Shown piece by piece: positions 1,982 to 33,681 of a stretch of DNA of 42,695 nt. Below the pieces are notes generated by a model, which did not search any database, was not told the DNA's origin, and worked only from the letters and a program-made list of their open reading frames with translations. Source of the DNA: Lachnospiraceae bacterium (GTDB taxonomy: Bacteria; Bacillota; Clostridia; Lachnospirales; Lachnospiraceae); assembly GCA_017622845.1 (NCBI GenBank), contig JAGAQJ010000052.1:1-42695 (forward strand), given 5' to 3'. Each line of letters opens with the position of its first letter. The stretch's first letter is position 1. Both the position numbers and the translations under genes were made by a program.

Positions 1982-2003
1982 TTGTGACAGCACTGCTGAC
2001 ACA
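1982..2003 (+). repeat. 22-bp direct repeat, copy 1 (copy 2 at 2299-2320)
   Basis: TTGTGACAGCACTGCTGACA plus CA occurs exactly twice: here, in the 98-bp gap before the DUF1016 gene, and again inside that gene at 2299-2320, where it encodes part of VTALLTQ. An exact 22-mer twice within 320 bp is unlikely by chance. It may be a duplication scar or an autoregulatory site. Confidence 0.75.
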
Positions 2004-2024
2004 CATTTAAAAGGCGGTTATTTT

Positions 2025-3014: not shown

Positions 3015-3069
3015 AATATGTATTACTATAAAAAGATTTGATGAAACAGTGATGTGGAAAGGAAATATA

Positions 3070-7954: not shown

Positions 7955-8326
7955 GTTGTAGTTGAGATATGTAAATTATGGTTTGGGCAGGACTTTATTA
8001 TTTTAAGTGTAGAAATATCTGCATATCCGTTTGTGGACTTGATATCAGAGGATAAAAAGCTTTTTGTTCAGGTATCCACTGCGCAGGATATACCAAGTTA
8101 AATAATTTATATAATGTACTTAAGTTTTAGTTTCTATCAGAAATAGTTTTCGAGATGCAAAAGCAGAAAGTGACAAATTTGCTAAAAAGATACGAGAATA
8201 TAAGATTATAGTAAATATGATATATTAAAATCTTTTGTTCAATGTACTGATATGATAAAAGAAGATCATGAATTGATTACAGCGTATCAGGATATCCTTG
8301 AAATATTAATTAATTTGAATTGCTAA
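7955..8326 (+). pseudogene. Decayed SMEK-domain-like gene (several frames)
   Basis: The 466-base gap after Mod is not empty. One frame reads to a stop at 8101 and contains FVDLISEDKKLFVQVSTAQD, which matches the core of the SMEK nuclease-like domain (ID/VDL..E.KKL..QV(S/T)). Two other frames continue: about 8149-8230 (FRDAKAESDKFAKKIREYK) and about 8215-8326 (KSFVQCTDMIKEDHELITAY, to a stop at 8324-8326). Together they look like one defence-associated gene broken by frameshifts and internal loss. SMEK proteins occur in defence loci such as ABC-3C-like systems. The frame pieces are direct sequence observations; the family name rests on remembered motifs. Confidence 0.55.
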
Positions 8327-8419
8327 GGAGCGGCTGTTATCTTGGATGAATTTAGAGTACATTAACATATAGGATTAAATGGACTATGTATAATTTTGAT
8401 ATTATGGAAAGGTATAAAT

Positions 8420-8920
8420 ATGAACGGGCAATATAAAAGTTTATTAAATTTATCAGTATGTAATAAGTGCAGATACAGAAATGTATGTTTCCTGCAATAC
8501 ATATCTATGCAAAAATACACTGAACAGGTGCAGAATTTCTTGACAAATGTTCTCAACACAAGCTTTTCGTATGAAGAACAAAAGAGACTATGGGGTGCAA
8601 ATTACTGGTCTGTTCAAGAGCAATTAGTGCGATACTATGATGTACAAAACTGTGAATTAATAGGAAACAAGAAGCCATTTTTGACCAATGAGGGGCAGAG
8701 AGAAAATGACAGACAGAAAATCAGAGAGCTTTTTAAGCAGATGCTGGATATTGCTGCTAAAGCAACAGAGGAAAAAAATCCAGAAATGTCAATTATGTTT
8801 GATGGAATAGGGCTTGTGCTGGCATCTGATTATGCAGACGCAGTGAGTAAAATATTTTCTATGTTGAAGACGGCTGTAAAGAGAGATAATTATTTTTCGG
8901 GAGGATGTTTTGGATATTGA
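8420..8920 (+). CDS. Unrecognised small protein with N-terminal cysteine cluster
   Basis: 166 residues from ATG 8420, which has GGAAAGG about seven bases upstream; the frame opens eight codons earlier at TTG 8396. I do not recognise the family. Near the N-terminus is CNKCRYRNVC (C-x2-C-x5-C), which could bind zinc or a metal cluster. The rest is mostly helical and hydrophilic, with no membrane segment, and ends SGGCFGY. It lies at the edge of the defence island, after the SMEK remnant and before the scar region. A short frame after it (TTG 8912 to a stop at 8969-8971, reading DIEFSDQKLIVIIGHSDNN) has GGGAGGATG upstream and may be the start of a lost downstream gene. Confidence 0.6.
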   Translation: MNGQYKSLLNLSVCNKCRYRNVCFLQYISMQKYTEQVQNFLTNVLNTSFSYEEQKRLWGANYWSVQEQLVRYYDVQNCELIGNKKPFLTNEGQRENDRQKIRELFKQMLDIAAKATEEKNPEMSIMFDGIGLVLASDYADAVSKIFSMLKTAVKRDNYFSGGCFGY

Positions 8921-9037
8921 GTTTAGTGATCAGAAACTTATTGTAATTATTGGACATAGCGATAATAATTGAGTGGTAACGCTCGAAAAGAAGAAAAGTT
9001 CGCTAAAAAACACTCTTTTCTACTTTAACTTTAGCGT

Positions 9038-9209
9038 CAGTGTACAAGGGGCAATACGGTCAGAAACGCCCGAATTTGCGCTCCTGCATTGTTACTTTCG
9101 CTCCGCGTCGTTCAAGTGCCTTGCAGGAGCCACAAATCGGACTGTTTCTGACTCTTCGACCTCAGCCATCGGATTACATGTTCTGAGGCGTGTTACCCCC
9201 TGTACACTG
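9038..9209. repeat. 172-bp nested palindromic element with terminal inverted repeats
   Basis: The ends are imperfect 21-bp inverted repeats: CAGTGTACAAGGGGCAATAC(G) at 9038-9058 against 9189-9209, 17 of 21 matching. Inside, GTCAGAAAC (9059-9067) pairs with GTTTCTGAC (9144-9152), and 9070-9088 pairs with 9122-9140 (CCGAATTTG..CTCCTGCA against TGCAGGAG..CAAATCGG). A further CCTCAG/CTGAGG hairpin lies at about 9160-9187. The whole unit can fold into one branched structure. It abuts the 3' end of a broken regulator gene. It could be a MITE-like insertion, a structured RNA or a recombination site. Confidence 0.65.
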
Positions 9210-9538
9210 ATGCTGCCTTCGGAAAGCGCAATCGTGCCATACATCATCTGACAGATGCCATTATCTAAAGTTTGTTTCCCTTCATGTTCTAAAACAAGGT
9301 TTTCGCAGGTAGAAAGAGCCTGTCTTGCCATGTCAGTATTTTTGGAGAGAATCAGCATATTGGTAAGATTCATCAACTGTTGTAGCATATCATGAGATTC
9401 CGCCAGTCCAAGGTGTGCCATATTCTTGACAGATGATTAAAGCAGTATGGAACATTTCAGTATCCTCATTGATATGTACAACAAGGCGATAGAGGCAGAT
9501 CTCATACTGAAGAATATACCAATGCAGGTATCGAGCGT
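9210..9538 (-). pseudogene. Broken TPR-like regulator fragment
   Basis: On the minus strand a frame from about 9535 reads HWYILQYEICLYRLVV and then HINEDTEMFHTALIICQEYG before running out of frame near 9425. It resumes in a second frame as MAHLGLAESHDMLQQLMNL to about 9210 (ALSEGSISVQ). Both ends are cut: the upstream end abuts an integrase fragment on the other strand, and the downstream end abuts the palindromic element. The helical, leucine- and alanine-rich pattern suggests tetratricopeptide-like repeats of a transcriptional regulator. The assignment is tentative; the frameshift and the two truncations are clear. Confidence 0.5.
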
Positions 9539-9709
9539 GGCATGAACCCTAAAACAGTGCAGGTTATCTTAGGACATTCAAGCGTCAATATCACAATGAA
9601 CCTGTACTGCCATGTGACGGAAGATACGCTCATATCTGAGATGAGTAAATTTGAAGCAGAAGAATCTGAAAAAGGTGTCAATCGTCAAATTGGTGTAAAA
9701 GTGGTGTAA
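9527..9709 (+). pseudogene. C-terminal remnant of a tyrosine integrase
   Basis: The frame reads GIERGMNPKTVQVILGHSS, then VNITMNLYCHVTEDT, and ends at TAA 9707-9709. This is the C-terminal catalytic part of Tn916/phage-type integrases: LGHSS is the conserved box and the tyrosine in NLYCHV is the expected nucleophile. Everything upstream, including the RHxLR box, is missing, and unrelated sequence starts at about 9527. It is non-functional as it stands. It supports past integration of a mobile element that may have brought in the defence island. Confidence 0.8.
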
Positions 9710-9730
9710 TCTCTAAAAATCAACTCAATA

Positions 9731-9806
9731 AAGCAGTCTGCGGGCAGTTGATGTCTATGTCACAAAGCTCAGAGATAAACTGTCGGCATGCGACGGATTC
9801 AAGATT
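9731..9806 (+). pseudogene. Fragment of an OmpR-type winged-helix domain
   Basis: A frame between a stop near 9726 and a junction near 9806 reads RAVDVYVTKLRDKLSACDG, then FKIVT. This resembles the recognition helix and last strand of OmpR/PhoB response-regulator DNA-binding domains (VDVxVxxLRxKL...I.TV.G.GY). The expected GxGY ending is absent, and the sequence runs instead into the upstream part of the next frame. It reads as a deletion junction. Only about 25 residues are visible, so this is a suggestion rather than a firm call. Confidence 0.4.
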
Positions 9807-9834
9807 GTAACAGAGCTGTGTCAGGGAGATAGAG

Positions 9835-10119
9835 ATGCTGGAAAAATCAAAAACCTCTGCAGCGACAATCTATGCACTGATTGTCGGAATTTTGGGAACT
9901 GCATTTATGGCAGGAGCGACCTTTGCAGTGATGGCAGAGGCGCCGCATGTTTTTCTGTGCATTCTGCTTGCCATACCGGGCTTTGCCGGGTGGATACTAT
10001 CCTATTTTGTCTATAAAAGGATGGTCAGAAAGCAGATAAAAAAAGCAACGCCCCTGATAGAAGAAAAGTATGATGAAATTTATGAGATATGCGAGAAGGG
10101 AAACCGGCTGTTATCCTGA
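9835..10119 (+). CDS. Small two-helix membrane protein, possibly 5'-truncated
   Basis: 94 residues from ATG 9835 (GGGAGATAGAG upstream). Two hydrophobic segments lie at about residues 10-32 (TIYALIVGILGTAFMAGATF) and 39-61 (VFLCILLAIPGFAGWILSYF), followed by a charged, helical cytoplasmic tail that ends GNRLLS. I do not know its function. The same frame is open upstream of the ATG (QSCVREIE), up to the junction with the response-regulator-like fragment. The original gene may therefore have been longer and lost its 5' part in the same deletion. It may or may not still be expressed. Confidence 0.55.
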   Translation: MLEKSKTSAATIYALIVGILGTAFMAGATFAVMAEAPHVFLCILLAIPGFAGWILSYFVYKRMVRKQIKKATPLIEEKYDEIYEICEKGNRLLS

Positions 10120-10170
10120 AGCCGCAGCGCTGCCGCTGCCCTCTTGTAATCAATATTAATACAATTCTAT

Positions 10171-11319
10171 CTATATAATTGTCTCAATGGAAAGATTCTG
10201 ATTGGCGGAAAGCTGCAGGATGCTTTTGTAATACTGCTCCTGCAAATCAAGAATCTCATTGTTGTCAGTGCGGATAACAGGTCTGGAATAGCTGTTGTGA
10301 TTGATAAAAATCACATTGCCCTCCATTCCGTTGCTGAGCGTTACCCTGTGGCTCAGGTACGAATTGGATACATTTTCAAGAAATGTGAGAATGTACTTCA
10401 TGTCATATTTCCGGATGCCATCGTCTTCAAAATACTTGATGACAGAAAACGGGCACATTGCGGAGTGATAGACTCGTTCGCTCGTCATGGCATCAAAAAT
10501 ATCGGCGATTGTGACAAGCTTTGAAAAGTTGTCGATTTCATCACCCTTCAGTCCGTAAGGGTATCCGCTTCCGTCACATTTTTCATGATGCATCAGCGCA
10601 GTATTTTTGACAGGCTCAGGAATACTGCGGTACTTTCCTAATAAATGAAAGCCCTCGGAGGTATGCGTTTTGATAATTTCAAATTCTTCCGGTGTCAGTT
10701 TGCCGGGTTTCTGCAGCACCCCTGCCGGAAGCATGAATTTGCCGATATCATGAAACAGTCCGCAGGCTGTTGCCATTCGCTGGTCGGCTTCGGAGAAATG
10801 CAGCCAGCGTGACAAAATATTGGAAATCAATGCCACATCGATGCAATGCATATATATAGAGTCGTCTGCATTATGCATATTTAAGAGCATGTCAAAAACG
10901 CTCACTTCCTGCTCATCCTGATAGAGCAGAGCCAGCGTTTCCCTGACCAATTCATTGGCACGGAACGGTTCGCCGCGGTACAGAGCATTCATAAGGTTAT
11001 TCCGGTAATGCTCTGCACATCGTGCAAATTCCTGTGAAAAACGTTGGAACTGCACACTTTCCTTCAGCTTTTCCTTGACGGATTTTTCACCGGAATCATG
11101 CAGGCATGCACTGACGGACTGGTCTGCCATGGGCTTTGACAAATCTGCGGCAATTTTGTTTTCAATATATACATAATAGATGGAATATCCTTCCAGTCGT
11201 GATATAATATTTTCAGTAAGGATGATTCCTTTTGGGACAATCACTTTGCAGTCATAGGATACAATATCCTCAGCGGTTACCATGCCCGGAGTCAGGTCCG
11301 CAACAGGTATCTGTTTCAT
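10171..11319 (-). CDS. HD-GYP domain protein, likely cyclic di-GMP phosphodiesterase
   Basis: About 382 residues. The N-terminal 60 residues resemble the small domain that often precedes HD-GYP (IPVADLTPGMVTAEDI..). The C-terminal half is a complete HD-GYP domain: FHDIGKFMLP (HD and its following residues), then HHEKCDGSGYPYGLKGDEI, the HHE...GSGYP signature. These residues bind the metals that hydrolyse cyclic di-GMP. The start is taken as ATG 11319-11317 because AAAGGTGG sits just upstream on the minus strand; the longer frame to 11394 would run through the promoter. No membrane segment is seen, so it is cytosolic. It could affect motility or attachment, which fits the two chemoreceptors nearby, but no direct link is shown. 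Confidence 0.9.
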   Translation of the reverse strand: MKQIPVADLTPGMVTAEDIVSYDCKVIVPKGIILTENIISRLEGYSIYYVYIENKIAADLSKPMADQSVSACLHDSGEKSVKEKLKESVQFQRFSQEFARCAEHYRNNLMNALYRGEPFRANELVRETLALLYQDEQEVSVFDMLLNMHNADDSIYMHCIDVALISNILSRWLHFSEADQRMATACGLFHDIGKFMLPAGVLQKPGKLTPEEFEIIKTHTSEGFHLLGKYRSIPEPVKNTALMHHEKCDGSGYPYGLKGDEIDNFSKLVTIADIFDAMTSERVYHSAMCPFSVIKYFEDDGIRKYDMKYILTFLENVSNSYLSHRVTLSNGMEGNVIFINHNSYSRPVIRTDNNEILDLQEQYYKSILQLSANQNLSIETII

Positions 11320-17817: not shown

Positions 17818-20250
17818 ATGAGAAGTATCAAAACCAAATTAATCATGCTGGGTGCCGTATCCATCATTTGCACCATAATCCTGGGGCTTGTAGGCATCTA
17901 TATCATGAACAGCAACAATGCAAGCAATCAGGTCTTAAATGATATCAATCAGATTAACCTGAAGCAGAACGAAAATACCACGCAGGAGACGTCCTTCCTT
18001 TACGATCTGGATATGAGCCATTATCAGACAATCCAGTCCAATCTGGTTTCCATGGAAGAAGCAGGGCAGGATGCGCTTGCCGGCAGTAAGGGGGAGGACT
18101 ATGACAGCGATCTGCAGAGCGTGGCAGCTGCGATTGCAGCAGTGAGCGCCAATACGGAGGAGCTTAGCGGACTGCTGAATGAGCGCGGATTCAAAAGCGG
18201 CAGCGGCATGTATGCGTCCTTTGCAGGCGGTGATGAAGCGCTGGAGGCAGCAATTGAAGCGATGGATAGTGAGAGCAGTTGGGTAGACGGCGCATGGGAT
18301 ACGGCTGCGCTGACAGCAATTCCGTCCATATCAGCCGAAGGGAAAAATTTCAAAAAAATGACCTATACGCATGATATTCCTGAAATCAGCAAGAGGAATA
18401 TTTTATACATACGTCTGGGCGGTAATGGTATGGATTATACGGGTGATGTGTATGTTACGAATATCAGCCTTGACGGAGTGGAGTTTCCGATTGCAGATAT
18501 CAATCCGGATGTGCTTTCCGGCTCCTACGGTGACGGTCTGGCTGGTGTGCAGGTGTCGTCTTTTGACGGTGCGGATGCGCTGTATATCCAGACGAAATTT
18601 GCAGATGTAAACGGAAACTGGCAGGAGGTCAGCACGAGAATTGATGTGACAGGCATCAATATCTCGGAATATAAAACAATCTCCTTTGACCTTTATTTTG
18701 AGGATAAGGAAAATCCTGATATCAGTATTGCAACAGCTTTTGACGGAAAGTATGTGTTTGATGAGAATCTTCAAAAGGTAAACAGCCTGTTTGATGCTTA
18801 TAATAAGCTTGTTGCTGAGGGAAGCAGCACCGGAAGCTATCCGGAGGATATTGTGGAGCTGCTGGAAGAGATGACAGGCAATGCGCCTCTGTATACAAAG
18901 CAGCAGGAGACTGCCGATGCTCTGGAATCCGGGTTTTCGGCAAAGCTTGCAGCAGTCAGAAGCATTGTCGACTATGATCAAAACATACTGACCCTCAAGT
19001 CGGAAAACAATGCGGAGAACACAGAGCTGACATCCCTGACCGCAGAGGTGCGCAGCAAAATCGAAGAGCTTACGCAGCAGCAGAAGACAACGATGTCAAC
19101 AGTAATATATGCTGTGTTTCTGGCGGGCGCAGTGCTTGTCGTTCTCCTCACACTTTTTGTGATTGCGTCAGTACAGAAGAGCATTAAGAATTTTAAGGAA
19201 ACGCTCACGCATATTTCAGAAGGTGAAATCATGGTGAAGGCACGAACAGGCACAGGCGATGAGTTTGACACATTTGGGCGTTCTCTGAACAGTATGACTG
19301 ACAAGCTGTCAGAGGTGATAGGAAATGTCAAAAGTTACGGAATTGAGCTGAAACAAAGCGGTTCTGAGCTTCAGGAAATGTCACAGACTTCAGAACGCAC
19401 GTCTGACCGGATTGATGCGGCGATTTCTGAGATTGCAATGGGAGCTGCCAATCAGGCAAGTGATGTGGAAAATTCAACCAGCCAGATAGTAAATCTTGGC
19501 GAATTGATGGATTTAATGGACACGGATATTGTGGAGCTTGATGAGACTTCCGTGAATATGAAGCATGCAAGTGACGGAGCGATGACAATCCTGCATGAGC
19601 TGAGCATCTCAAATGAGAACATGACAGACGGAATCCACAAGATTGCACGCCAGATTACAAGGACAAACGATTCCGTAAAGGAAATTGAGGAGGCGGTATC
19701 GTTGATTTCATCGATTGCGTACCAGACAAACCTGCTTTCCTTAAATGCCAGCATCGAGGCGGCAAGAGCCGGAGAGGCAGGAAGGGGCTTTGCAGTCGTG
19801 GCATCGGAAATCCAGCAGCTTGCAGATCAGTCAAATAAGTCGGCAGACACCATTTTCGGCGTTATTTCAAACCTGATTCATGAGTTTAAGGAGACGCTTG
19901 ACATCATGGGTCAGGTAGAGAGCGCGACAAGTGAGCAGAATAGTAAGCTGGCGGATACCCGGAAGCAGTTTGAGATTGTCAATGAGGGAATTGCGCAGTC
20001 AAGAGACAAAACAGCAGTGATTAAAAGCGCAGTCAGTGAGTGCAATAAGGTGAGAAATGCCATATCTGAAATTATGCTGAATCTTTCCGCGATTTCTGAG
20101 GAAAACGCAGCATTGGCAACAGAGACGGCAACTGCCATGCAGAAATTAAACGGTACGATTTCAGAGTTTCTGCAGGAATCACAGAAGCTTCTGAAAATTT
20201 CCTCCCAGCTTGAGGAAGATATGAATTTTTTTAAGCTTGGTGAAATATAA
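17818..20250 (+). CDS. Methyl-accepting chemoreceptor with a CBM-like extracellular insert
   Basis: 810 residues from ATG 17818 (AAAGGAGAG upstream). Order: TM1 at about 8-30; extracellular part about 31-425; TM2 about 426-452; HAMP about 453-505; signalling domain about 560-800 with the hallmark [20 protein letters not shown]. The extracellular part starts and ends as helices, as in four-helix-bundle sensors. About residues 135-315 are an insert rich in beta strands and aromatic residues ([47 protein letters not shown]). That pattern is typical of beta-sandwich carbohydrate-binding modules on mannanases (CBM27/CBM23-like). The receptor lies directly upstream of the mannan locus, so it may steer cells towards mannan or its oligosaccharides. 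The receptor call is firm; the CBM call is by pattern. Confidence 0.92.
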
Positions 20251-20661: not shown

Positions 20662-22866
20662 ATGATTACCTATAACGAGAGAGAACGAATTTTTAAGCTG
20701 GACACGCCGGACACCACATACATGATTGGGATTGTGGATGAGGAAAATTTTATCGGACATATTTATTATGGGAAAAGGTTAAAGGAGGCAGAGGCTTCCT
20801 ATCTGATGAGAACACAGGAGCCGCCCTTTGTCCCAAGCACAAATAACAGGGAACGCTGTTCCTTTTATGACTGTTTTCCGTTTGAATATCCCACAAGCGG
20901 CGTCGGAGACTACAGAGAAGGCTGTATCGGCATCAGAACGGCAGCAGGCCATGTGGGAAGCATGCTTTCTTATGTGTCGCATGAGATTCTTGAGGGAAAA
21001 CCTGAGCTTGAGGGACTTCCGGCGACCTTTGGATCAGAACAGGACTGCATGACATTAAAGCTTATCTGTGAGGACCGGCATGTGGGAATGCAGGTGGAGC
21101 TTTTGTATACGGTATTTCATGACACAGATGTCATAACCAGAAGTGCAAAAGTGACCAATACCGGCAGGGAATATTTCTATCTGACCAAGATATGCTCAGC
21201 CTGCATTGATATGGATAACAGGGATTTTGACATGATATCTCTCCACGGAAGCTGGGCGAGAGAGCGCCATATTCAGAGAAAAGCATTAGGCTATGGCATT
21301 CAGAGCGTAAGCTCCTGCAGAGGTGAGTCCAGTCATCAGGATCATCCGTTCCTTGCATTGGCAGACAAGCACGCAACGCAGGAAAACGGTGAGATTTATG
21401 CCATGAATTTTGTGTATTCAGGAAATTTCCGCGCACAGGCAGAGGTGACGCAGTTTGATTCTGTGCGCATGACAATGGGGATACACCCTGAGAATTTCTG
21501 CTGGAAATTGGAGTGCGGCGAGAGTTTTCAGGCACCCGAGGCTGTTATGGTCTACACGGACAAGGGCTTTGATGCTATGACCCAGACCTTTCACAGACTT
21601 TATAGAAAGCATCTGATCCGCGGCGAATACAAGGATAAAAAGAGACCGATTCTTATCAACAACTGGGAGGCGACTTATTTTGACTTCAACACAGACAAGC
21701 TGCTGTCTATCGCAAGGGAAGCCTCAAAGCTCGGCATCGAAATGCTTGTTATGGATGACGGCTGGTTTGGCAATAGAAGCAGCGATAACTGTGCGCTTGG
21801 CGACTGGAAGGTAAATGAGAATAAAATTAACGGCGGCCTGAAATATCTGGTGGATGAGGTAAACAAGCTCGGCATGAAGTTCGGCATCTGGTTCGAGCCG
21901 GAAATGATTTCGCCGGATTCCGACCTGTACAGAGCACACCCGGACTGGGCGTTTGCGATTCCGGGAAGACCCGGAACGGAGTCGAGACAGCAGTTTGTGC
22001 TTGACCTTTCCAGACAGGAAATCGTTGACTATATTTATGAGCAGGTGGCTTCCGTGCTCCGGAGCGCAAATATTGAGTACGTAAAGTGGGATATGAACCG
22101 TCAGCTTACAGATATCGGAAGCTGTGGACTGCCTGCGGACAGGCAGGGAGAGCTGTACCACCGCTATGTGCTTGCGGTTTACCAGATGCAGGACAGGCTT
22201 ACAAGGGAATTTCCGCACCTGCTGCTTGAGAACTGTTCGGGCGGCGGAGCGCGCTTTGACCCGGGTATGCTTTATTATAGTCCTCAGATTTGGTGCTCTG
22301 ATGATACCGACGCCATTGAGCGTCTGGAGATACAGGAGGGAACGGCGCTGATTTATCCGTTATCGACGATAGGGGCGCATGTCTCAGACTGCCCGAACCA
22401 TACCGTAGGGCGCGTGACGCCGTTTGAGACAAGAGGAATTGTGGCGCTTGCGGGAACTTTCGGTTACGAGCTTGATGTGACAAAGATTCCGGTGGAAGAC
22501 AGAGAAATGATACCTGCACAGGTTGCAATGTACCACAAGTACAATGATTTGATCAGAGAAGGAGATTATTACCGCATTGCCTCTTACGCACAGAACCGCA
22601 AATATGACTGCTGGCAGGTAGTAAGCGGGGATAAGAAGCAGGCGCTTGTTACCTTCGTGCAGGTGATGAACAGGGCAAACTTTAAGTCCAGGCGGATTCT
22701 CCTTAAGGGGCTTGACGGGGAGAAGCGCTATCGGGTGGAGTTTGTCAATGATGACAGCGTGGAAGATCAGATATACAGCGGAGATACCCTTATGAAGGCA
22801 GGGCTGCTGGTGCCGAATCCATGGGGAGATTTCAAGGCAAGGCTGATATCACTGACAGAAGCGTAA
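20662..22866 (+). CDS. GH36 alpha-galactosidase
   Basis: 734 residues, full length for bacterial tetrameric GH36. An N-terminal beta-sandwich (about 1-330) is followed by a TIM barrel: MLVMDDGWFGNRSSD, MKFGIWFEPEMISPDSDLY, YVKWDMNRQLTD with the nucleophile Asp at about 477, CSDDTDAIERL with the acid/base Asp at about 547-548, and a C-terminal beta domain. It removes alpha-1,6-galactose from galactomannan oligosaccharides. There is no signal peptide, so it acts in the cytoplasm after import, as in the Roseburia mannan pathway. A GGAAAAG-type site precedes the ATG. Downstream, a 9-bp stem GCCGTTCCG/CGGAACGGC (22874-22898) without a T run separates it from the LacI gene, which is probably co-transcribed. 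Confidence 0.95.
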   Translation: MITYNERERIFKLDTPDTTYMIGIVDEENFIGHIYYGKRLKEAEASYLMRTQEPPFVPSTNNRERCSFYDCFPFEYPTSGVGDYREGCIGIRTAAGHVGSMLSYVSHEILEGKPELEGLPATFGSEQDCMTLKLICEDRHVGMQVELLYTVFHDTDVITRSAKVTNTGREYFYLTKICSACIDMDNRDFDMISLHGSWARERHIQRKALGYGIQSVSSCRGESSHQDHPFLALADKHATQENGEIYAMNFVYSGNFRAQAEVTQFDSVRMTMGIHPENFCWKLECGESFQAPEAVMVYTDKGFDAMTQTFHRLYRKHLIRGEYKDKKRPILINNWEATYFDFNTDKLLSIAREASKLGIEMLVMDDGWFGNRSSDNCALGDWKVNENKINGGLKYLVDEVNKLGMKFGIWFEPEMISPDSDLYRAHPDWAFAIPGRPGTESRQQFVLDLSRQEIVDYIYEQVASVLRSANIEYVKWDMNRQLTDIGSCGLPADRQGELYHRYVLAVYQMQDRLTREFPHLLLENCSGGGARFDPGMLYYSPQIWCSDDTDAIERLEIQEGTALIYPLSTIGAHVSDCPNHTVGRVTPFETRGIVALAGTFGYELDVTKIPVEDREMIPAQVAMYHKYNDLIREGDYYRIASYAQNRKYDCWQVVSGDKKQALVTFVQVMNRANFKSRRILLKGLDGEKRYRVEFVNDDSVEDQIYSGDTLMKAGLLVPNPWGDFKARLISLTEA

Positions 22867-22929
22867 GAAAGCCGCCGTTCCGGCTGACACGGAACGGCGC
22901 TATCAGACAAGAATAAAGGAGTGAGAACA

Positions 22930-23952
22930 ATGGTTAAGGCTGTAAAGCTTGCAGATATCGCGGAGAAGGTAGGCGTCAGCGTCGTTACCGTGTCAAAGGC
23001 GCTGTCGGGCCAGAAGGGTGTCAGCGAGGAGATGCGCGCCAGAATCAAGGCGCTTGCCGACGAGATGGGATATACCCCGATTCATGCCGTGCAGACAGGA
23101 AGGACGAGGTCCTATACTATCGGCGTGATTACATTTGAAACATATTTTGCCAGATTTGCGTCCTTTTACTGGAAGATGTATCAGGAGCTTGCGACACGCG
23201 CAGTAAAGAAAAACTGCTTTTCCATGCTGGAAGTAATTTCCAACTTTGATGAGGAGAACCTTGTCTGGCCGAAGCTGATAACCGAGAATCAGAAGATAGA
23301 CGGAATTATCGTGATTGGAAAACCGAAAACCGATTACCTGAAAATGCTTTATCAAAGCAGAAAAATACCGATGGTTTTCATGGATTTCTATGATGATGAG
23401 GATGTGGTGGATTCTGTCATTTCTGCCAGCTTCAACGGCATGTACCGTATGACGGATTATCTGGTCAAAAACGGTCATACGCGCATCGCTTATGTGGGAA
23501 CGCTGATGTACACCGAGAGCATCACAGACCGGTATTTTGGATACTGCAAGGCATTGATGGAGCATGGCATTGAGGTGCGCCAAGACTGGATTATCAAGGA
23601 CAGGGAGTACAGCGACGGCGTCATCGGTCCTGATTACAGGCTGCAGCTTCCCAAGGAGATGCCGACGGCATTTGTGTGCAACAATGACGTGACGGCATAT
23701 GCGCTGATTAAACAGCTCGAACGGAAGAACTACCGCGTGCCTGAGGACATATCCGTGGTGGGCTATGATGATTACCTGTATGCGGAGTACGGTGACTCTA
23801 AGATTACCACCTACTCGGTCGATATGGGAGAAATGTCAAAGATTGCTCTCTCGTGCATTATCAAGCGTATTGAAAACATATCTGTGAACCCGAGCGTGCA
23901 TATTGTAAACGGCAGAATCATAGAGCGCGCAACTGTAAAAAAAATCAATTAA
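22930..23952 (+). CDS. LacI-family regulator of the mannan locus
   Basis: 340 residues from ATG 22930 (AAAGGAG eight bases upstream; the frame also opens at GTG 22921). Helix-turn-helix KLADIAEKVGVSVVTVSKAL and hinge, then a sugar-binding sensor domain ending with the LacI-type VGYDDYLYAEYGDSKITTYS. It lies between GH36 and the transporter genes and likely represses one or both sets until a mannan-derived sugar binds. The ligand is inferred from position. Its stop codon overlaps the stop of the convergent AraC gene by four bases, so there is no room for a terminator between them. Confidence 0.9.
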   Translation: MVKAVKLADIAEKVGVSVVTVSKALSGQKGVSEEMRARIKALADEMGYTPIHAVQTGRTRSYTIGVITFETYFARFASFYWKMYQELATRAVKKNCFSMLEVISNFDEENLVWPKLITENQKIDGIIVIGKPKTDYLKMLYQSRKIPMVFMDFYDDEDVVDSVISASFNGMYRMTDYLVKNGHTRIAYVGTLMYTESITDRYFGYCKALMEHGIEVRQDWIIKDREYSDGVIGPDYRLQLPKEMPTAFVCNNDVTAYALIKQLERKNYRVPEDISVVGYDDYLYAEYGDSKITTYSVDMGEMSKIALSCIIKRIENISVNPSVHIVNGRIIERATVKKIN

Positions 23953-24869
23953 CGGATAACCGGTGTTTCTCTGCGGTATGCAAGCGGAGTGACACCGGTT
24001 TTTTCTTTGAAAAGCCTTATGAAGTGGTTTGTATTTTCAAATCCGACCATCTGGCCGATTTCCACAACCTTTTCATCTGTATTGAGCAGAAGCTTTTTTG
24101 CCTTGTCGATGCGCACCCTGCTGAGATACTGCATGGGGGTGCATTCATAATATTTCGCAAATTCACGCACAAGCCTGAACTTGTTGATGTTATATTCGGC
24201 AGCAAGCTCCTCCAGGGAGTACGGCTCCTCGCAGGCGGTGTCAAATCTGCGGTGCATATCCGCGATGTAGGAGGGCACATGGTAAGTGCCGGAGCGCTCA
24301 ACAGCACGCACGAGATAAAGCTGCGTAAAAAAGCTTACAAGCTCCCGCGAGCGCATAATGCCGTGCAGCTCATCGTCCGTATCATTTCGCAATACCTGTT
24401 CCCACGCATCAAGAATGTCAGAACATTTGTCAAGGCGGTACAGGAAATCCCCTGATTCAAATATTTTCAGAAAGTAATATTCCAGACCTAAAGTGCTTAC
24501 AAAGCAGATGGTGTATTCCCAGATGTTATGCCGGCAGACAAGCTTATGGTTTTTGCGGCAGTCAATCAGGGCAAGCGTGCCTTTTGCAAGCTCATACCCG
24601 GCATTGATGCCGTTTGCGCTTTCGCAGTACAGCTTTCCGGCTCCTTTGGTGGTGTGCACGATGCACAGGGCATCAAGACCTGCCGCCTCATAGGAAAACG
24701 GTGATGTGACGGACACGCTTTTGTGGCACAGCTCATGCGGAAGATAAGCGCAGAAATCATATTCTCTGCTGTAGGCATTGTCGAAGTAATCCGACAGGGA
24801 AAAACGGTTGCTTGTCTCGGAGGAGATGAGGCAGCCGAAAAATTCAGAGGAAAACATTTTTTTAGGCAT
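23949..24869 (-). CDS. AraC-family regulator, divergent from the transporter operon
   Basis: 306 residues. The N-terminal part (about 30-180) is a cupin-like ligand domain. The C-terminal 100 residues carry two helix-turn-helix units: YSLEELAAEYNINKFRLVRE and VVEIGQMVGFENTNHFIRLF, then the family ending KEKTGVTPLAYRR. It is transcribed away from the sugar-binding-protein gene, the classic layout for an activator of the divergent operon. The intergenic region has short direct repeats spaced by about one helical turn, as AraC proteins prefer. The ligand is likely a mannan-derived sugar, by position only. GGAGCTGCC precedes the ATG at 24869 on the minus strand. Confidence 0.92.
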   Translation of the reverse strand: MPKKMFSSEFFGCLISSETSNRFSLSDYFDNAYSREYDFCAYLPHELCHKSVSVTSPFSYEAAGLDALCIVHTTKGAGKLYCESANGINAGYELAKGTLALIDCRKNHKLVCRHNIWEYTICFVSTLGLEYYFLKIFESGDFLYRLDKCSDILDAWEQVLRNDTDDELHGIMRSRELVSFFTQLYLVRAVERSGTYHVPSYIADMHRRFDTACEEPYSLEELAAEYNINKFRLVREFAKYYECTPMQYLSRVRIDKAKKLLLNTDEKVVEIGQMVGFENTNHFIRLFKEKTGVTPLAYRRETPVIR

Positions 24870-25344: not shown

Positions 25345-26796
25345 ATGAAGTTCAAAAAACTTATGGCACTTGGAATGGCCGCAGTAATGACAATGTCACT
25401 TGCAGCATGCGGAAGCTCAGACAATAATGCATCATCAGGCAATGATGCGGCAGCAGACACAGCAGCAAAGACAGATGCAGCAGCAGATACGGCAGCAGCG
25501 GAAACAGAGGCAGACACAAACCAGGATGCCGCGGAAAGCAGCCTTACATACGCAGGAATCACGCTTGGCGAGGATTACACAGACCTTACGACATCTATCA
25601 AGTGGATTCACCACAAGACAGACCGTGAGGAGGACGGTACAATTCAGGGATACATTGATGAGTTCAACAAAATGTACCCGAACATCACAGTGGAGCACGA
25701 GGGAATTACAGACTATGCTGAGACAGCGCTCTTAAGGCTTCCGACAGGCGACTGGGGCGACATCATGTTTATCCCTGCTATCGACATGGCTGACCTTGAG
25801 AACTATTTCATTCCATATGGTTCCGTAGCTGAGATGTCCGAGCTTATCAACTTTGCAGACCAGTGGAAATATCAGGATCAGTGCTACGGCATCGGATACA
25901 TGGGAAATGCGCAGGGTCTTCTTTACAACAAGGCAGTATTTGAAGCAGCAGGCATTACAGAGCTTCCTAAGACTCCGGATGAGTTTATTGCTGATTTACA
26001 GCTTATCAAGGACAACACAGATGCAATTCCTCTTTACACAAACTATGCAGCAGGCTGGACAATGGGCGGCGCATGGGACGGATACCTCGGAGCCATCACA
26101 ACAGGCGATACGACATGGTTAAACCAGAAGTTCACACATACTGCAGAGCCGTTTGCAGATAACGGTGACGGAACAGGCGCTTATGCATTGTACAAGATTC
26201 TCTATGATGCAGTTGCACAGGGACTTACAGAGGAAGATTATACGACTACAGACTGGGAAGGCTGCAAGGGTATGATTAACAGAGGCGAGATTGGTACAAT
26301 GGTGCTTGGCTCATGGGCTGTTGCCCAGATGAAGGCAGCAGGCGATAATCCGGATGACATCGGATATATGCCGTTCCCGATTACTGTGAATGGAAAGCAG
26401 TATGCGACAGCAGGTCCGGATTACTGCTACGGTATCAATGCACAAAGCTCTGCTGACAATCAGGCAGCAGCCATGGTATTTGTTAAGTGGATGGTTGAAG
26501 AGTCCGGCTGGTGCGATTTTGAGGGCGGCTATCCCATCTCTAAGACAGCGCCGACTTCCTTCGTATTTGACGGCGTAGAGGTTGTCAACAACGATTCCGC
26601 TCCTGAAGATGAGGCAGACCTTATGAACCAGATGAACGCTGAGTCTGAGCTGAACTTTAACGCAGGCGGAGATTCCAGAGTTCAGAGAATCGTAGAGGCA
26701 GGAGCAACAGGAGAGTCTTATGATGACATTATGGCAGAGTGGACTCAGAAGTGGAACGATGCACAGAGCGCTTTAGGCGTAGACGTGCTTTACTAA
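25345..26796 (+). CDS. ABC transporter sugar-binding lipoprotein (mannooligosaccharide-type)
   Basis: 483 residues. A lipoprotein signal peptide (MKFKKLMALGMAAVMTMSLA) ends in the lipobox LAAC with Cys at about residue 22. A Ser/Asp/Ala/Thr-rich linker follows to about residue 65, then a family 1 extracellular solute-binding domain (about 75-483). It is anchored outside the membrane and delivers oligosaccharides to the two permeases that follow. The neighbouring GH130, GH36, esterase and epimerase genes point to beta-mannan oligosaccharides, as for the RiMnBP protein of Roseburia. The linker contains many GCA/GAC codons, which create long false frames in other registers. It is first in the operon and probably the most highly expressed gene. 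Confidence 0.93.
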   Translation: MKFKKLMALGMAAVMTMSLAACGSSDNNASSGNDAAADTAAKTDAAADTAAAETEADTNQDAAESSLTYAGITLGEDYTDLTTSIKWIHHKTDREEDGTIQGYIDEFNKMYPNITVEHEGITDYAETALLRLPTGDWGDIMFIPAIDMADLENYFIPYGSVAEMSELINFADQWKYQDQCYGIGYMGNAQGLLYNKAVFEAAGITELPKTPDEFIADLQLIKDNTDAIPLYTNYAAGWTMGGAWDGYLGAITTGDTTWLNQKFTHTAEPFADNGDGTGAYALYKILYDAVAQGLTEEDYTTTDWEGCKGMINRGEIGTMVLGSWAVAQMKAAGDNPDDIGYMPFPITVNGKQYATAGPDYCYGINAQSSADNQAAAMVFVKWMVEESGWCDFEGGYPISKTAPTSFVFDGVEVVNNDSAPEDEADLMNQMNAESELNFNAGGDSRVQRIVEAGATGESYDDIMAEWTQKWNDAQSALGVDVLY

Positions 26797-26810
26797 TCAG
26801 ACAGCATGAT

Positions 26811-26841
26811 ATGGCTTGCAGGCATAATCCCTGCAAGCCAT
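26811..26841 (+). promoter_or_regulatory. Stable stem-loop between binding-protein and permease genes
   Basis: Perfect 12-bp stem ATGGCTTGCAGG/CCTGCAAGCCAT with a 7-base loop and no T run after it. In many sugar ABC operons such a hairpin protects the upstream message or partly stops transcription, giving more binding protein than permease. Confidence 0.7.
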
Positions 26842-26903
26842 AAATTCCAAAGAGCAAAAAACAGATTATTAAAATTATAAAAAGAGAAGGAGGAGATGGC
26901 TTT

Positions 26904-27914
26904 ATGGCATCGGCAGCAAAAACAAATAAGTCAGAAAGACCATTCAATTTCCTTAGGTGGGCAAAGAGCAGGAAAGGTCAGCAGACGCTTATTATCATCG
27001 GTTTTTCCATAATACCTTTGTTACTCCTATTTACATTTACTTACTTCCCATTTGTAAAAATGGCGCAGTTTAGCTTTTATGACAGAAATTATATAAAGGT
27101 GAGGGGCTTTGTAGGTCTTAAAAATTATATCGACGTATTCAAGAGGCCGGATATCTTCAAGTCACTGTGGTTATCGCTTTACTATATGGGCGGAGCAGTC
27201 GTACAGCTTGCGCTTGCGCTGTATCTGGCGACGATTTTCTGCTTCGGCGTAAAGGGCGGCAACTTCTTCAAGGGCTGCATGTTCTTCCCGTATCTGATTA
27301 ACGGTATTGCCATCGGTTTCATCTTCAAGTTTTTCTATACAAGAGGATTCGTGCTTGATACGGTGCTTCAGTGGATCGGCTTTGATTTGGAAAACCTTCC
27401 GTACTGGCTCAGAGATACCAGCATCAACAATGTTTCTTTGGTTGCAACCAGCGTATGGAAATATTTTGGACAGAACATGGTGCTTTTTGTAGGTGCGATG
27501 ATGTCAGTTGACGCATCACTCTATGAGGCGGCAGAGCTGGACGGTGCAAATAAATGGCAGCAGTTTAAATACATCATGCTTCCGAGTATCAAGACAATTG
27601 TTATGTTAAACTTAATTATGTCCATTACAGGCTCTTTAAGTGCGTTCGAGCCTCCGTATGTTATCATGTCAGGCGGCGGAAACGGCACGGCAACATACTT
27701 CGTAAAGATGCACGAGGTAGCGCATACAAGCCAGAAGCTTGGTCTTGCATCGGCTATGGCTATCGTTCTGCTGATTATCATCTTCATTGTAACCATCCTG
27801 CAGAAGCTTTTCTTCAAGTATGTATTTAAGAATGCAGAGGATGAGGATAAGGGAGCAGCAGCAAAGCGTGAAAAGAAGCTTGCAAAATTAAGGGCAAAGG
27901 AGGCGGCAAGATAA
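26904..27914 (+). CDS. ABC sugar permease, MalF-type (MPP1)
   Basis: 336 residues with about six transmembrane segments (for example IIGFSIIPLLLLFTFTYFPF and MAIVLLIIIFIVTILQKLFF) and the EAA loop EAAELDGANKWQQFKYIMLP, which contacts the ATPase. It pairs with the next gene to form the channel. The N-terminal 30 residues are charged and cytosolic, and the C-terminal tail is Lys/Glu/Ala-rich. AAGGAGGAG lies upstream of the ATG. The stop TAA shares its A with the ATG of the second permease (TAATG), so the two are translationally coupled. No ATPase gene is present, so a shared MsmK-type ATPase encoded elsewhere is expected. Confidence 0.94.
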   Translation: MASAAKTNKSERPFNFLRWAKSRKGQQTLIIIGFSIIPLLLLFTFTYFPFVKMAQFSFYDRNYIKVRGFVGLKNYIDVFKRPDIFKSLWLSLYYMGGAVVQLALALYLATIFCFGVKGGNFFKGCMFFPYLINGIAIGFIFKFFYTRGFVLDTVLQWIGFDLENLPYWLRDTSINNVSLVATSVWKYFGQNMVLFVGAMMSVDASLYEAAELDGANKWQQFKYIMLPSIKTIVMLNLIMSITGSLSAFEPPYVIMSGGGNGTATYFVKMHEVAHTSQKLGLASAMAIVLLIIIFIVTILQKLFFKYVFKNAEDEDKGAAAKREKKLAKLRAKEAAR

Positions 27915-28759
27915 TGACAGTTGGTGATAATGTAAAAAAGTATCTGTGGATATTTATTAAATATTTTTCAATGATATTCTTCTCGTTTGTGTCTCTTCTG
28001 CCGATTGTATCGTGCGTGATTACTGCTTTTAAGACGGATGCGGAATATCAGAATACAAATGTTATGACGCCGCCTGAGAGCTGGCTGAACTTTCAGAACT
28101 TTATCGATGCCTTCCAGAAGGCGGATATGGGAAGGGCATTCCTCAACTCAGCCATTGTAGTTGTCATTGTCGTGGCAGGCTCCGTTATGATTGGCTCCAT
28201 GCTTGCTTATGTCCTGAACCGCTTTACCTTTCCGGGAAACGGACTGATTCGAAACCTGTTCCTTTTTGCGACGCTGCTTCCCGGTATTGCGATGCAGGTA
28301 TCAACTTATCAGTTAATGTACCAGTTAGGATTTATCAATCACTTATACGGCTACATTATACTGATGATGGGTACGGACGTTATCTCAATCTACATCTTTA
28401 TCCAGTTTTTTGAGAATATTCCGACCTCCCTTGATGAATCGGCATATATGGATGGAGCAAGCTATGTCACGATTTTCTTCAGGATTCTGTTTCCGCTGTT
28501 AAAACCGGCGATTGTAACCTGTATGATTTTGAAGGGCGTGGGCGTATACAACGAGTACTACAGTGCACAGCTTTATCTGGTTGACAAGAAGATTCAGACG
28601 GTTGCAATGTCGCTCTATACCTTTACCGGACCTCTTGGAAGCAAGTACAACCTGATCTGCGCGGGCGTTATCATCACGCTGCTTCCGGCGCTGATTATCT
28701 TTATCGCTTTCCAGAAGCAGATATATTCAGGTCTTACGTCCGGCGCTGTTAAGGGTTAA
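27914..28759 (+). CDS. ABC sugar permease, MalG-type (MPP2)
   Basis: 281 residues with six transmembrane segments (for example YFSMIFFSFVSLLPIVSCVI and AIVVVIVVAGSVMIGSMLAY) and the EAA loop DESAYMDGASYVTIFFRILF. It forms the channel with MPP1. It overlaps the MPP1 stop by one base. The 139-bp gap that follows (28760-28898) is AT-rich, with a short stem TTAGG/CCTAA at about 28791-28807 but no clear terminator, so transcription probably reads on into the enzyme genes. Confidence 0.94.
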   Translation: MTVGDNVKKYLWIFIKYFSMIFFSFVSLLPIVSCVITAFKTDAEYQNTNVMTPPESWLNFQNFIDAFQKADMGRAFLNSAIVVVIVVAGSVMIGSMLAYVLNRFTFPGNGLIRNLFLFATLLPGIAMQVSTYQLMYQLGFINHLYGYIILMMGTDVISIYIFIQFFENIPTSLDESAYMDGASYVTIFFRILFPLLKPAIVTCMILKGVGVYNEYYSAQLYLVDKKIQTVAMSLYTFTGPLGSKYNLICAGVIITLLPALIIFIAFQKQIYSGLTSGAVKG

Positions 28760-30101: not shown

Positions 30102-31277
30102 ATGACATTTGAAGAAAAGAAAGCAATGGTAATGAAAAGGTACGAGGAGGTTGTCAGCCGCAAAAACGTAAAGAGTGATTTCTACAACGGTATTTATGAC
30201 CGTTACGAGTATCCGGTTCTGACACGCGACCATATTCCTCCGTTTTGGAAGTATGATATGAATCCTGAGACAAATCCGTATTTTATGGAGCGTCTCGGCG
30301 TAAACTGCGCCTTCAATTCAGGCGCGATTGAATTAGACGGCAGGTTTTATCTTGTAGCCAGGGTGGAGGGAAATGACAGAAAGTCCTTCTTTGCAGTGGC
30401 AGAGAGCGACAATGGCGTTGACGGCTTCCGGTTCTGGGATTATCCCATACTGTTAGATGATGTATGCCCTGAGGAAACAAATGTTTATGATATGCGCCTC
30501 ACAAAGCATGAGGACGGCTACATCTACGGCGTGTTCTGCTCCGAGAGCAAGGATACAAGCGTAAACGACCTGTCGGCAGCAGTTGCGGCAGCAGGCATCG
30601 TGCGGACGAAGGACTTAAAGACATGGGAGCGTCTTGACAATTTAAAGACACTGAACTCTCCCCAGCAGAGAAATGTGGTGCTGCACCCTGAGTTCGTAAA
30701 CGGCAAGTATGCGTTCTACACCAGACCAATGGACGATTTCATCGACACAGGAAGCGGCGGAGGAGTAGGCTTTGGTCTTTGCGATGATATCACGCATGCA
30801 GTGATTGATGAGGAAATTATCACAAGCAAGAGAAAATACCACACCATCACAGAGGTAAAGAACGGAGCAGGTGCCGTTCCTATTAAGACAGAAAAGGGCT
30901 GGATTCATATTGCACACGGCGTGAGAAATACAGCAGCAGGACTGCGCTATGTCATCTACGCGTTTGCAACGGCGCTTGACAATCCGGCAAAGGTCATTGC
31001 CGAGCCGGGCGGATTTCTTATCGCGCCGCTTGGAGCTGAGAGAGTCGGAGATGTATCTAATGTTGTGTTTACAAACGGCGCTATCGCAAGAGAGAACGGA
31101 GAAGTCTATATTTATTATGCTTCCAGCGATACAAGGCTTCATGTGGCAACAACGACGATTGACCAGCTTGTCGATTATGTATTTAATACGCCGCAGGACC
31201 CTCTGCGCTCTGTGAAGTGTGTAGAGCAAAGGTGCGAGTTTATCAGAAAAAATCTGGAGTTTATGAACAGGAATTAG
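30102..31277 (+). CDS. GH130 4-O-beta-mannosyl-glucose phosphorylase (GH130_1-type)
   Basis: 391 residues. The longer N-terminus and the block [16 protein letters not shown] are typical of GH130 subfamily 1, which splits mannosylglucose with phosphate into mannose 1-phosphate and glucose. The catalytic Asp is expected at about residue 130 in NVYDMRLTK. Other blocks are [34 protein letters not shown] and [16 protein letters not shown], as in five-bladed propeller GH130 enzymes. AAGGAGAT lies upstream. Subfamily choice rests on these motifs and on the adjacent epimerase; a phylogeny would settle it. There is no signal peptide, so it is cytosolic. Confidence 0.92.
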
Positions 31278-31325
31278 CAGGGAGCCGTGAGGCTGAACGG
31301 TTACGGCAAAAGAAGGGAGAGGCGG

Positions 31326-32477
31326 ATGAGAACTGAAAAATATGGAATCGACTGCAGTAAAGCTGTTTTAAATAAGGGAAACCTTTACCGGATTGAGAGA
31401 GTGATGAAAAAAGCGATGCAGGGAGAGGATATCGTTGTGGGCTTTCTGGGAGGTTCCATCACGCAGGGCTGTCTGTCCTCCTCTCCAAAGACCTGCTACG
31501 CATATCTGGTATACAAGTGGTGGTGTGAGAGGTTTCCTGCTGCAAAGGTCACTTATGTCAATGCCGGAATCGGAGGAACCACTTCGCAGTTTGGCGTGGC
31601 AAGGGCGGACAGTGATTTGCTGTCAAAGGAGATTGACTTTACCATTGTGGAGTTTAGTGTCAATGACGACGACAATGAGCACTTCATGGAAACCTATGAG
31701 GGATTAATCAGAAAAATTTACAGTTATCGGACAGAACCGGCAATTCTGATTGTGAACAGCGTGCGCTATGATGATGGTGTCAATGCACAGGCTGCCCATG
31801 GAAAGATTGGAAAAGCATATGAGCTTCCCTGCGTGAGCATGAAGCCGGCTCTGTACGAAAAGATACTGGACGGCACATACGTAAGCCGTGATATCACAGA
31901 AGATGACCTTCACCCCAATGATGAGGGGCACGGACTGATGGCAGAGGTTATCATCAGCTTTCTGGAATCCGTTTATGAGGAACTTGCATCAGGACAGGAA
32001 GCGGCAGACAATGGGCTGGAGATACAAAAAATGACACCTGTGTCAGAAAATGCCTATGAAAATTCTGTGCGGTATCAGAATGACAACAGTGAGAATATCA
32101 TGACGGAAAATAACGGTTTTACAGCCGATACACAGCCGCAGAACGATATCAGGGAAATTTTCCGGCGCGGCTGGACAGCAGATAAAAAAGGTGCGCATAT
32201 CGGCTTTGATATTGAGGGAAGCTGTATCGGCGTACAGTATCGCAAATCCGTAGTGCAGCCTACCTGCATTGCAAGAGCAGTCATTGATGGCGATGAGGAC
32301 AATGCAAAAATTCTTGACGGCAACTTTGAGGAGACATGGGGGGACAGCCTTCATCTTGATACGCTTGCCGAGCATCTGCCTTTCGGAAAGCATCATGTAG
32401 AGATAGAGCTTATTGAGACACATGAGGACGACAAGGTTCCTTTTTATCTGGTGTCGGTGATAGGCTCCGGAAAGTGA
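31326..32477 (+). CDS. SGNH acetylesterase, CE17-like mannan esterase with C-terminal CBM35-like domain
   Basis: 383 residues from ATG 31326, chosen because GAAGGGAGAGGCGG lies just upstream; the frame also opens at GTG 31287. Residues about 30-220 form an SGNH hydrolase: FLGGSITQG with Ser at about 44, NAGIGGTTSQFG, EFSVNDDDNEH, and DLHPNDEGHGL with Asp at about 194 and His at about 196. Residues about 265-383 form a beta-sandwich resembling the CBM35-like part of RiCE17. That enzyme removes 2-O-acetyl groups from mannooligosaccharides, and gene order supports the same role here. There is no signal peptide, so it is cytosolic. It sits between the two GH130 genes. Confidence 0.85.
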   Translation: MRTEKYGIDCSKAVLNKGNLYRIERVMKKAMQGEDIVVGFLGGSITQGCLSSSPKTCYAYLVYKWWCERFPAAKVTYVNAGIGGTTSQFGVARADSDLLSKEIDFTIVEFSVNDDDNEHFMETYEGLIRKIYSYRTEPAILIVNSVRYDDGVNAQAAHGKIGKAYELPCVSMKPALYEKILDGTYVSRDITEDDLHPNDEGHGLMAEVIISFLESVYEELASGQEAADNGLEIQKMTPVSENAYENSVRYQNDNSENIMTENNGFTADTQPQNDIREIFRRGWTADKKGAHIGFDIEGSCIGVQYRKSVVQPTCIARAVIDGDEDNAKILDGNFEETWGDSLHLDTLAEHLPFGKHHVEIELIETHEDDKVPFYLVSVIGSGK

Positions 32478-32555: not shown

Positions 32556-33590
32556 ATGAGCAAAGTAAAAATGATTAGCCCGGCTGTACCCAATATGCCT
32601 TGGCAGGACAGGTCAGAGGGAAAGACGACAGGCGCTGCAGACGCACCGATTTGGAGATATAACGAAAATCCCATTATTGGAAGAAATCCGGTAAAGGGCG
32701 TAGCGAGAATCTTTAACAGCGCCGTAGTTCCTTATGAGGGTGAGTTTATCGGTGTATTCCGCGGCGAGCAGGTAAACGGCATTCCTTATATTTACCTTGG
32801 ACGCAGCAAGGATGCAATTCACTGGAATTTTGAAGCAGATAAGATTGATTTTGTAGATGAAGACGGAAAGCCGTTTATGCCGGTCTATGCATATGACCCT
32901 CGTCTTGTAAAGGTTGAGGATACCTACTACATTATCTGGTGCCAGGACTTCTATGGCGCTGCAATCGGTATGGCAAAGACAACGGATTTCAAGACCTTTA
33001 CACGCATTGAGAATCCGTTCCTTCCATTTAACAGAAACGCAGTGCTGTTCCCGAGAAAGATTAATGGCAATTTCATGATGTTAAGCCGTCCATCTGATTC
33101 CGGACATACACCGTTTGGCGATATCTTCGTGAGCGAAAGTCCTGATATGGTTTACTGGGGAAAGCACAGACATGTAATGGGCAAAGGCAGCGAGTGGTGG
33201 GAGTCGCTTAAGATTGGCGGCGGAGCAGCTCCGATTGAGACAAGCGAAGGCTGGCTGTTATTCTACCACGGCGTGACAGGAACCTGCAATGGATATGTTT
33301 ACTCTATCGGCGGAGCAATTCTGGACATTGATAATCCTTCTATCGTGAAGTACCGCTGTGAGAACTTCCTGCTGACTCCTGAGGAATGGTATGAGGAGAG
33401 AGGTTTTGTTCCGAATGTATGCTTCCCGTGCGCTACCATTCATGACTCCGGGACAGGCAGAATTGCAATCTACTATGGTGCGGCAGACAGCTATGTAGGT
33501 CTTGCATTTACAGAGCTGGACGAGATTGTTGATTATATCGAAAACCACAGCAGAGTGTCTGAATCAGATATGGAAATCGGAAAGAGATAG
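32556..33590 (+). CDS. GH130 beta-1,4-mannooligosaccharide phosphorylase (GH130_2-type)
   Basis: 344 residues. NENPIIGRNPVKGVARIFNS and VFRGEQVNGIPYIYLGRS are typical of GH130 subfamily 2, which phosphorolyses mannooligosaccharides from the non-reducing end to give mannose 1-phosphate. The catalytic Asp is expected at about residue 114 in YAYDPRLVK. Other blocks are FNRNAVLFPRKINGNFMMLS and GGGAAPIETSEGWLLFYHG. ACGAGGAGG precedes the ATG. The short gap before it (32478-32555) carries two small hairpins, GAGGAAAATTCCTC and TTTTCCTTCGGAAAA, which may tune expression. It is cytosolic and shares only moderate similarity with the GH130 gene at 30102, as expected for different subfamilies. Confidence 0.92.
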   Translation: MSKVKMISPAVPNMPWQDRSEGKTTGAADAPIWRYNENPIIGRNPVKGVARIFNSAVVPYEGEFIGVFRGEQVNGIPYIYLGRSKDAIHWNFEADKIDFVDEDGKPFMPVYAYDPRLVKVEDTYYIIWCQDFYGAAIGMAKTTDFKTFTRIENPFLPFNRNAVLFPRKINGNFMMLSRPSDSGHTPFGDIFVSESPDMVYWGKHRHVMGKGSEWWESLKIGGGAAPIETSEGWLLFYHGVTGTCNGYVYSIGGAILDIDNPSIVKYRCENFLLTPEEWYEERGFVPNVCFPCATIHDSGTGRIAIYYGAADSYVGLAFTELDEIVDYIENHSRVSESDMEIGKR

Positions 33591-33607
33591 TGTGAAAAAT
33601 AGAAATA

Positions 33608-33636
33608 GAACGCCATATTTACGGGCGTTCTTTTCT
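33608..33636 (+). terminator. Terminator-like hairpin between GH130 and CE2 genes
   Basis: Stem GAACGCC/GGCGTTC with a 9-base loop and TTTTCTT after it. The stem is short and the T run is interrupted, so it may stop only part of the transcripts and lower expression of the genes that follow. Confidence 0.6.
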
Positions 33637-33681
33637 TGCACACGGGTGCCCGGCGCGGCAGGATATAAGGAGGATATAAGA

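Follow-up and report, generated by a model that had tools for sequence, protein, structure and literature searches.

A chemoreceptor encoded beside a putative mannan operon in a Lachnospiraceae bacterium contains a predicted circularly permuted relative of the CBM27 carbohydrate-binding module

The window, which is the whole stretch of 42,695 nucleotides that was analyzed, encodes on its plus strand a methyl-accepting chemotaxis receptor of 810 amino acids (positions 17818 to 20250, with an ATG at 17818; Pfam MCPsignal, E value of 4.1e-30). From hydropathy, a first transmembrane segment probably lies within amino acids 3 to 33 (17824 to 17916), and a second hydrophobic segment is located within amino acids 423 to 457. 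The sensor domain appears, from its composition and size, to comprise two helix-like halves, one of about amino acids 34 to 151 with a conserved RG..G.Y motif (17917 to 18270) and one of amino acids 319 to 427 (18772 to 19098), which flank an insert of 167 residues (amino acids 152 to 318; 18271 to 18771). These halves would form a helical bundle that faces outward. The MCP signaling domain (amino acids 604 to 752; 19627 to 20073) scored 105.3 bits against a Pfam cutoff of 34.6. The HAMP match in the window receptor was 15.4 bits against a cutoff of 25, and HAMP was above the cutoff in four of the five insert-bearing homologs scanned (L042, L060, L063, and L064, but not L044). Matches to Pfam 4HB_MCP_1 and TarH were weak: at E values up to 0.1, each of the two was detected in 3 of 14 members. 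Pfam returned no Cache or PAS domain in the receptor at E values up to 1, domains that the preliminary description had named as evidence against its proposal. Helical-bundle receptors of the Tar or 4HB_MCP type share with the window receptor two transmembrane segments, a helix-like outer domain, and an MCP signaling domain. However, the helical domain of the window receptor is broken by a beta-rich relative of a glycan module.

The receptor gene is directly upstream of what appears from gene content to be a beta-manno-oligosaccharide operon, as initially described. The genes on the plus strand encode a GH36 alpha-galactosidase (Pfam Melibiase; 20662 to 22866), a LacI-type regulator (22921 to 23952), an ABC sugar importer comprised of a binding protein (25345 to 26796) and two permeases (25345 to 28759 in all), a 2-epimerase that from its locus is probably of the mannobiose epimerase type (PF07221; 28899 to 30089), a GH130 phosphorylase (30102 to 31277), a GDSL esterase (31287 to 32477), a second GH130 phosphorylase (32556 to 33590), a second GDSL esterase (33502 to 34791, a mechanical open reading frame that overlaps the preceding gene and whose true start is probably later), and a GH1 enzyme fused to phosphomannose isomerase (35103 to 37415). 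An AraC-type regulator is encoded on the minus strand (23949 to 24869). The available part of PMC6385246 describes the same GH36, LacI regulator, ABC importer, epimerase, two GH130 enzymes, two esterases, and GH1 for MULL/MULS of Roseburia intestinalis, with a GH26 enzyme bearing CBM27 at a separate locus, as in the window genome, and gives a preference of the R. intestinalis module, RiCBM27, for mannohexaose with a Kd of 165 uM. In that part of the text no chemoreceptor is named at MULL/MULS and the word chemotaxis does not occur. Some R. intestinalis utilization loci include chemotaxis proteins, according to the accessible part of PMC11913394, where a domain analysis of these proteins was not found.

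The genome from which the window derives (3.6 Mb, 76 contigs) encodes a GH26 protein of 1609 amino acids with CBM27 (three stretches over the cutoff) and CBM11. It also contains chemotaxis and flagellar genes, with five matches to CheW and three to Flagellin_N. One CheW-domain match, at positions 106228 to 106617 of contig C30, has one internal TAA. The sensor half of the receptor matches only itself in this genome.

The insert is enriched in aromatic residues, and this feature of the preliminary description was borne out: phenylalanine, tryptophan, and tyrosine account for 12.0% of amino acids 152 to 318 compared with 5.8% and 5.5% of the flanking parts, and all three tryptophans of the receptor fall inside the insert. 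The boundaries, originally given as 18220 to 18762, are now placed at 18271 and 18771. Profile, hhalign, and PDB comparisons indicate that the insert is homologous to CBM27. Of the identities suggested at the outset, CBM27 is thus retained, whereas CBM23 and CBM35 were both absent from the Pfam results for the receptor, the sensor regions, and the inserts. A weak match to CBM_5_12 in one of 14 members was set aside. With the insert in its native order, positions 120 to 170 of Pfam PF09212 matched amino acids 168 to 218 of the receptor, with a score of 20.1 bits for the whole protein and 24.4 bits for a 250-amino-acid fragment (cutoff of 20), but both of these matches cover only positions about 120 to 170 of 173. 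In genome-scan scoring the receptor reached 15.4 bits, under the cutoff. When the insert was permuted, PF09212 scored 29.6 bits over positions 56 to 170. Pfam detected CBM27 in 4 of 14 sensor regions at E values up to 0.1 and in 9 of 14 inserts at E values up to 1, counts that are not like for like, and therefore the claim of permutation rests on a rotation scan.

The profile comparisons indicate that the insert is a circularly permuted relative of CBM27 rather than a regular member of PF09212. Fourteen inserts were compared by hhalign with a set of eight CBM27 domains that came from seven proteins, one of which was the GH26 protein of the same genome, scanned further; partial matches were left out. 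The first half of the insert (amino acids 152 to 224; 18271 to 18489) aligned with columns 133 to 181 of the CBM27 alignment, the C-terminal third of the module, with a score of 33.3. The second half (amino acids 225 to 318; 18490 to 18771) aligned with columns 48 to 100, in the part that precedes the C-terminal third, with a score of 35.5, and starts with a linker that would join the old termini of CBM27. The preliminary description had likened two blocks of 10 residues to the last strands of the module. This was correct for the first block, but the second corresponds to the middle of CBM27, which means that the order is reversed. This permutation, the main finding, goes beyond what had been described. 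A CBM27 alignment doubled head to tail accepted the insert in its native order in a single alignment of 127 columns. Identity in the hhalign pairs was low, at 14 to 19%. For both halves and for the native and permuted inserts, the real scores (33.3 to 55.4) were above those of all 100 shuffles of the CBM27 columns (maxima of 17.1 to 19.2), and reversed CBM27 alignments scored 11.1 to 14.1.

In the rotation scan the insert was rotated in steps of about 8 columns against the CBM27 alignment. The native order aligned over 51 columns with a score of 36.6 when eight CBM27 domains were used, and over 57 columns with a score of 47.7 when ten were used, compared with peaks of 54.3 and 73.3, respectively. 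Cuts at amino acids 218 to 261 gave alignments of 113 to 132 columns with scores of about 50 to 54 (eight domains) or 69 to 73 (ten domains); the score dropped on either side of these cuts, and the best cut was in the linker of the insert. A regular, unpermuted CBM27 was ruled out because the native order aligned over so few columns, and the canonical strand order with a full-length match was not found, since the order is swapped. Profile searches of the PDB gave a corresponding result: the native insert matched 1pmh at an E value of 7.3e-8 over chain positions 122 to 181 only, and the permuted insert matched it at 7.6e-9 over positions 43 to 181, with further matches to 6tn6 (8e-4) and 1of3 (3.8e-3). 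The gain in E value was modest, about tenfold, and it is the gain in coverage that counts. In a 914-amino-acid protein with tandem CBM27 modules (genome G865), positions 97 to 163, 8 to 73, 97 to 163, and 8 to 73 of the native insert profile were matched in succession, so that the halves occur in reverse order in both modules, with the first half-matches weak alone (i-Evalue of 0.011). By eye, the first module of this protein is nearly identical to 1pmh.

With the order put right, the homology between the insert and the CBM27 modules of mannanases (1pmh/1pmj, 1of3/1of4/1oh4, 6tn6, PF09212) extends across about 130 columns. They have two aligned tryptophans in common, and the insert is found in a mannan locus. 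They differ in that the mannanase modules are attached to enzymes, whereas the module in the window is permuted, inserted in a chemoreceptor, and shows no evident counterpart of the third tryptophan. A precedent for permutation of a carbohydrate-binding module is provided by CBM36 and CBM60, which are reportedly related in this way and are said to be calcium-dependent families; they occur on enzymes.

The permuted profile pairs W155 (18280 to 18282) with W113 of 1pmh and W268 (18619 to 18621) with W60, as numbered by counting along the chain. W23, W60, and W113 are what we take to be the mannan-stacking tryptophans of 1pmh; W23 had no evident counterpart in the insert in this alignment. Residues were counted in 24 aligned receptors, the 26 described below less two close copies (L003 and L007) that also have all three tryptophans. 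W155 was present in 24 of 24, and W160 and W268 in 22 each; R193, R199, G175, P188, and G238 were also found in all 24. The only aligned receptors with alanine in place of W268 were L009 and L010, which are also among those without adjoining mannan genes. When eight Lachnospiraceae CBM27 domains were aligned with the insert profile, W268 had a tryptophan partner in two and W155 in none, but the alignment was often poor, and thus the tryptophans are mapped on the basis of 1pmh and a near relative of it. Because W155 comes within the first few residues of the insert, the permutation would set the helix hinge beside a probable binding tryptophan, an arrangement with possible mechanical consequences.

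The 26 receptors with the insert in a single open frame are that of the window, ten from close relatives (L002 to L010 and L012), ten from 397 Lachnospiraceae genomes, and five from 392 genomes of the order. The eleventh close relative, L011, was excluded from the tree and the residue counts; in this metagenome assembly the receptor gene (7959 to 10424) is broken into two frames. The family is rare, with members in 9 of the 397 Lachnospiraceae genomes, the window genome included. No further receptor was detected at E values up to 1e-5 in a phylum sample of 398 genomes, two of which had partial CBM27-like matches. Mannan-locus genes were downstream of the receptor in 8 of the 11 close relatives (L011 counted), one of which, L007, was counted on two regulators only because its contig ends there; none were found within the flanks fetched for L005, L009, and L010. 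Among the 15 more distant loci, in which only chosen neighbors were scanned, a carbohydrate-active gene stood no more than about four genes away from the receptor in 8. For example, the L044 receptor (37% identity) immediately follows the 3' end of an orthologous mannan operon, the end opposite to that occupied in the window. The others adjoin genes for GH10 and GH115 (L043), GH67 and an arabinofuranosidase (L048), CE2 (L040), GH3 (L047), an alpha-amylase (L060), GH95 (L062), and GH36, identified by BLAST (L045). No carbohydrate-active gene was found among the chosen neighbors at the other seven (L041, L042, L046, L049, L061, L063, and L064). In the receptor tree, which was midpoint rooted, with 6 of 21 inner branches open and L064 and L049 on long branches, the window receptor was in a clade of 10 rows (100/100) and L044 in one of 5 rows (83/98); a further clade, of 8 rows (98/95), contained the xylan-side receptors. 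Thus, the association with mannan genes is found in two clades.

Genome G245 encodes tandem receptors (L041, 8506 to 10623 and 10759 to 13311), one with the insert and one without. The insert-free paralogue (705 amino acids) has an open frame from which about amino acids 157 to 313 are absent, is 47 to 49% identical to its insert-bearing neighbor, and had no Pfam match to a 4HB_MCP-type bundle in its sensor. An insert-free ancestral receptor was considered as a sign of recent insertion and rejected, because with at most eight candidates scored per genome the insert-free form was found in only 1 of 250 genomes, and as a tandem paralogue. Secondary loss is therefore the more probable origin, and the paralogue demonstrates only that the module is discrete.

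We estimate a probability of about 0.66 that this chemoreceptor, with a permuted CBM27 jelly roll in its helical-bundle sensor, binds manno-oligosaccharides directly and guides taxis toward mannan. In a Gram-positive cell the interrupted bundle would be exposed to the outside, and the ligand would be beta-1,4-manno-oligosaccharides that the GH26 mannanase of the same cell sets free. These could stack on W155 and W268 along the groove of the module. With W155 so close to where the insert begins, a ligand at the hinge might alter how the two flanking helices are placed relative to each other. The change could cross the membrane and, by way of the HAMP-like region, reach the MCP tip and then CheW and CheA, biasing swimming toward mannan.

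Some Escherichia coli chemoreceptors sense sugars by way of sugar-loaded binding proteins. It is conceivable, but unlikely, that the insert has kept the CBM fold but serves as a surface on which the ABC binding protein (25345 to 26796) docks when loaded with sugar, with the receptor itself making no contact with the glycan. That binding protein is encoded in the same locus; however, it was matched in only one of the 15 distant loci, L044 (different binding proteins are encoded close to the receptor in L043 and L046), and the aligned tryptophans are almost invariant in receptors of unrelated loci, which docking would not need. In the accessible part of PMC12415202, all 11 helical-bundle (4HB) sensor domains of gut bacteria are reported without a ligand, and sensing through binding proteins is named as one possible reason.

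It also seems improbable that the permuted module binds another beta-glycan, such as xylan, glucomannan, or xyloglucan, or differs in ligand by lineage, with mannan merely the neighbor. Homologs that adjoin the GH10/GH115, GH67 and arabinofuranosidase, GH3, alpha-amylase, and GH95 genes have the same tryptophans, and thus the tryptophans do not specify mannan. However, the nearest solved relatives are CBM27 modules of mannanases; endoglucanase and cellulase modules, which a true CBM27 profile reached, were absent from the matches of the permuted insert; and members stand at mannan operons in each of two receptor clades. A domain that no longer binds sugar and is now a spacer, or that serves fiber attachment instead of taxis, would fit the open frame of the insert-free paralogue, the missing counterpart of W23, and a homolog with the insert but no MCP tip, but is very improbable given the residues present in 24 of 24 receptors, the MCP signaling domain of the window receptor, and the CheW genes of the genome. 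The homolog in question (L049, 9477 to 11393, 638 amino acids) lacks the MCP tip motif and has a C-terminal end like the others.

It is possible, though doubtful, that the receptor represents a family of glycan-specific chemoreceptors. These would have arisen when CBM27 was permuted, perhaps via tandem copies as in enzymes, which placed the attachment points beside a groove tryptophan and turned an anchor into a switch, and would then have spread and diversified to sense mannan, xylan, and other plant fibers beside matching operons.

Chemoreceptor sensors generally bind small molecules or binding proteins. No chemoreceptor with a carbohydrate-binding module was described in the literature searched, which was open access and incomplete in coverage; two CBM terms did not occur in PMC9239204. 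A built-in relative of a polysaccharide module would offer motile gut Lachnospiraceae a direct and testable way to locate dietary fiber, and a cell whose receptor binds mannan may swim by sensing that fiber itself. It would also be a natural case in which permutation may have made a signaling switch from a binding module. More such receptors may have been missed, because standard profiles, owing to the permutation, recover no more than roughly one third of the module.

Two further observations concern neighboring genes. Near the L046 receptor are two consecutive long binding-protein genes (1149 to 5626; open reading frames of 758 and 736 amino acids). The distal end of the mannan operon in the window is flanked by a gene for a second chemoreceptor (38056 to 39576, 506 amino acids), in which the MCP signaling domain was the only Pfam match at E values up to 1e-5.
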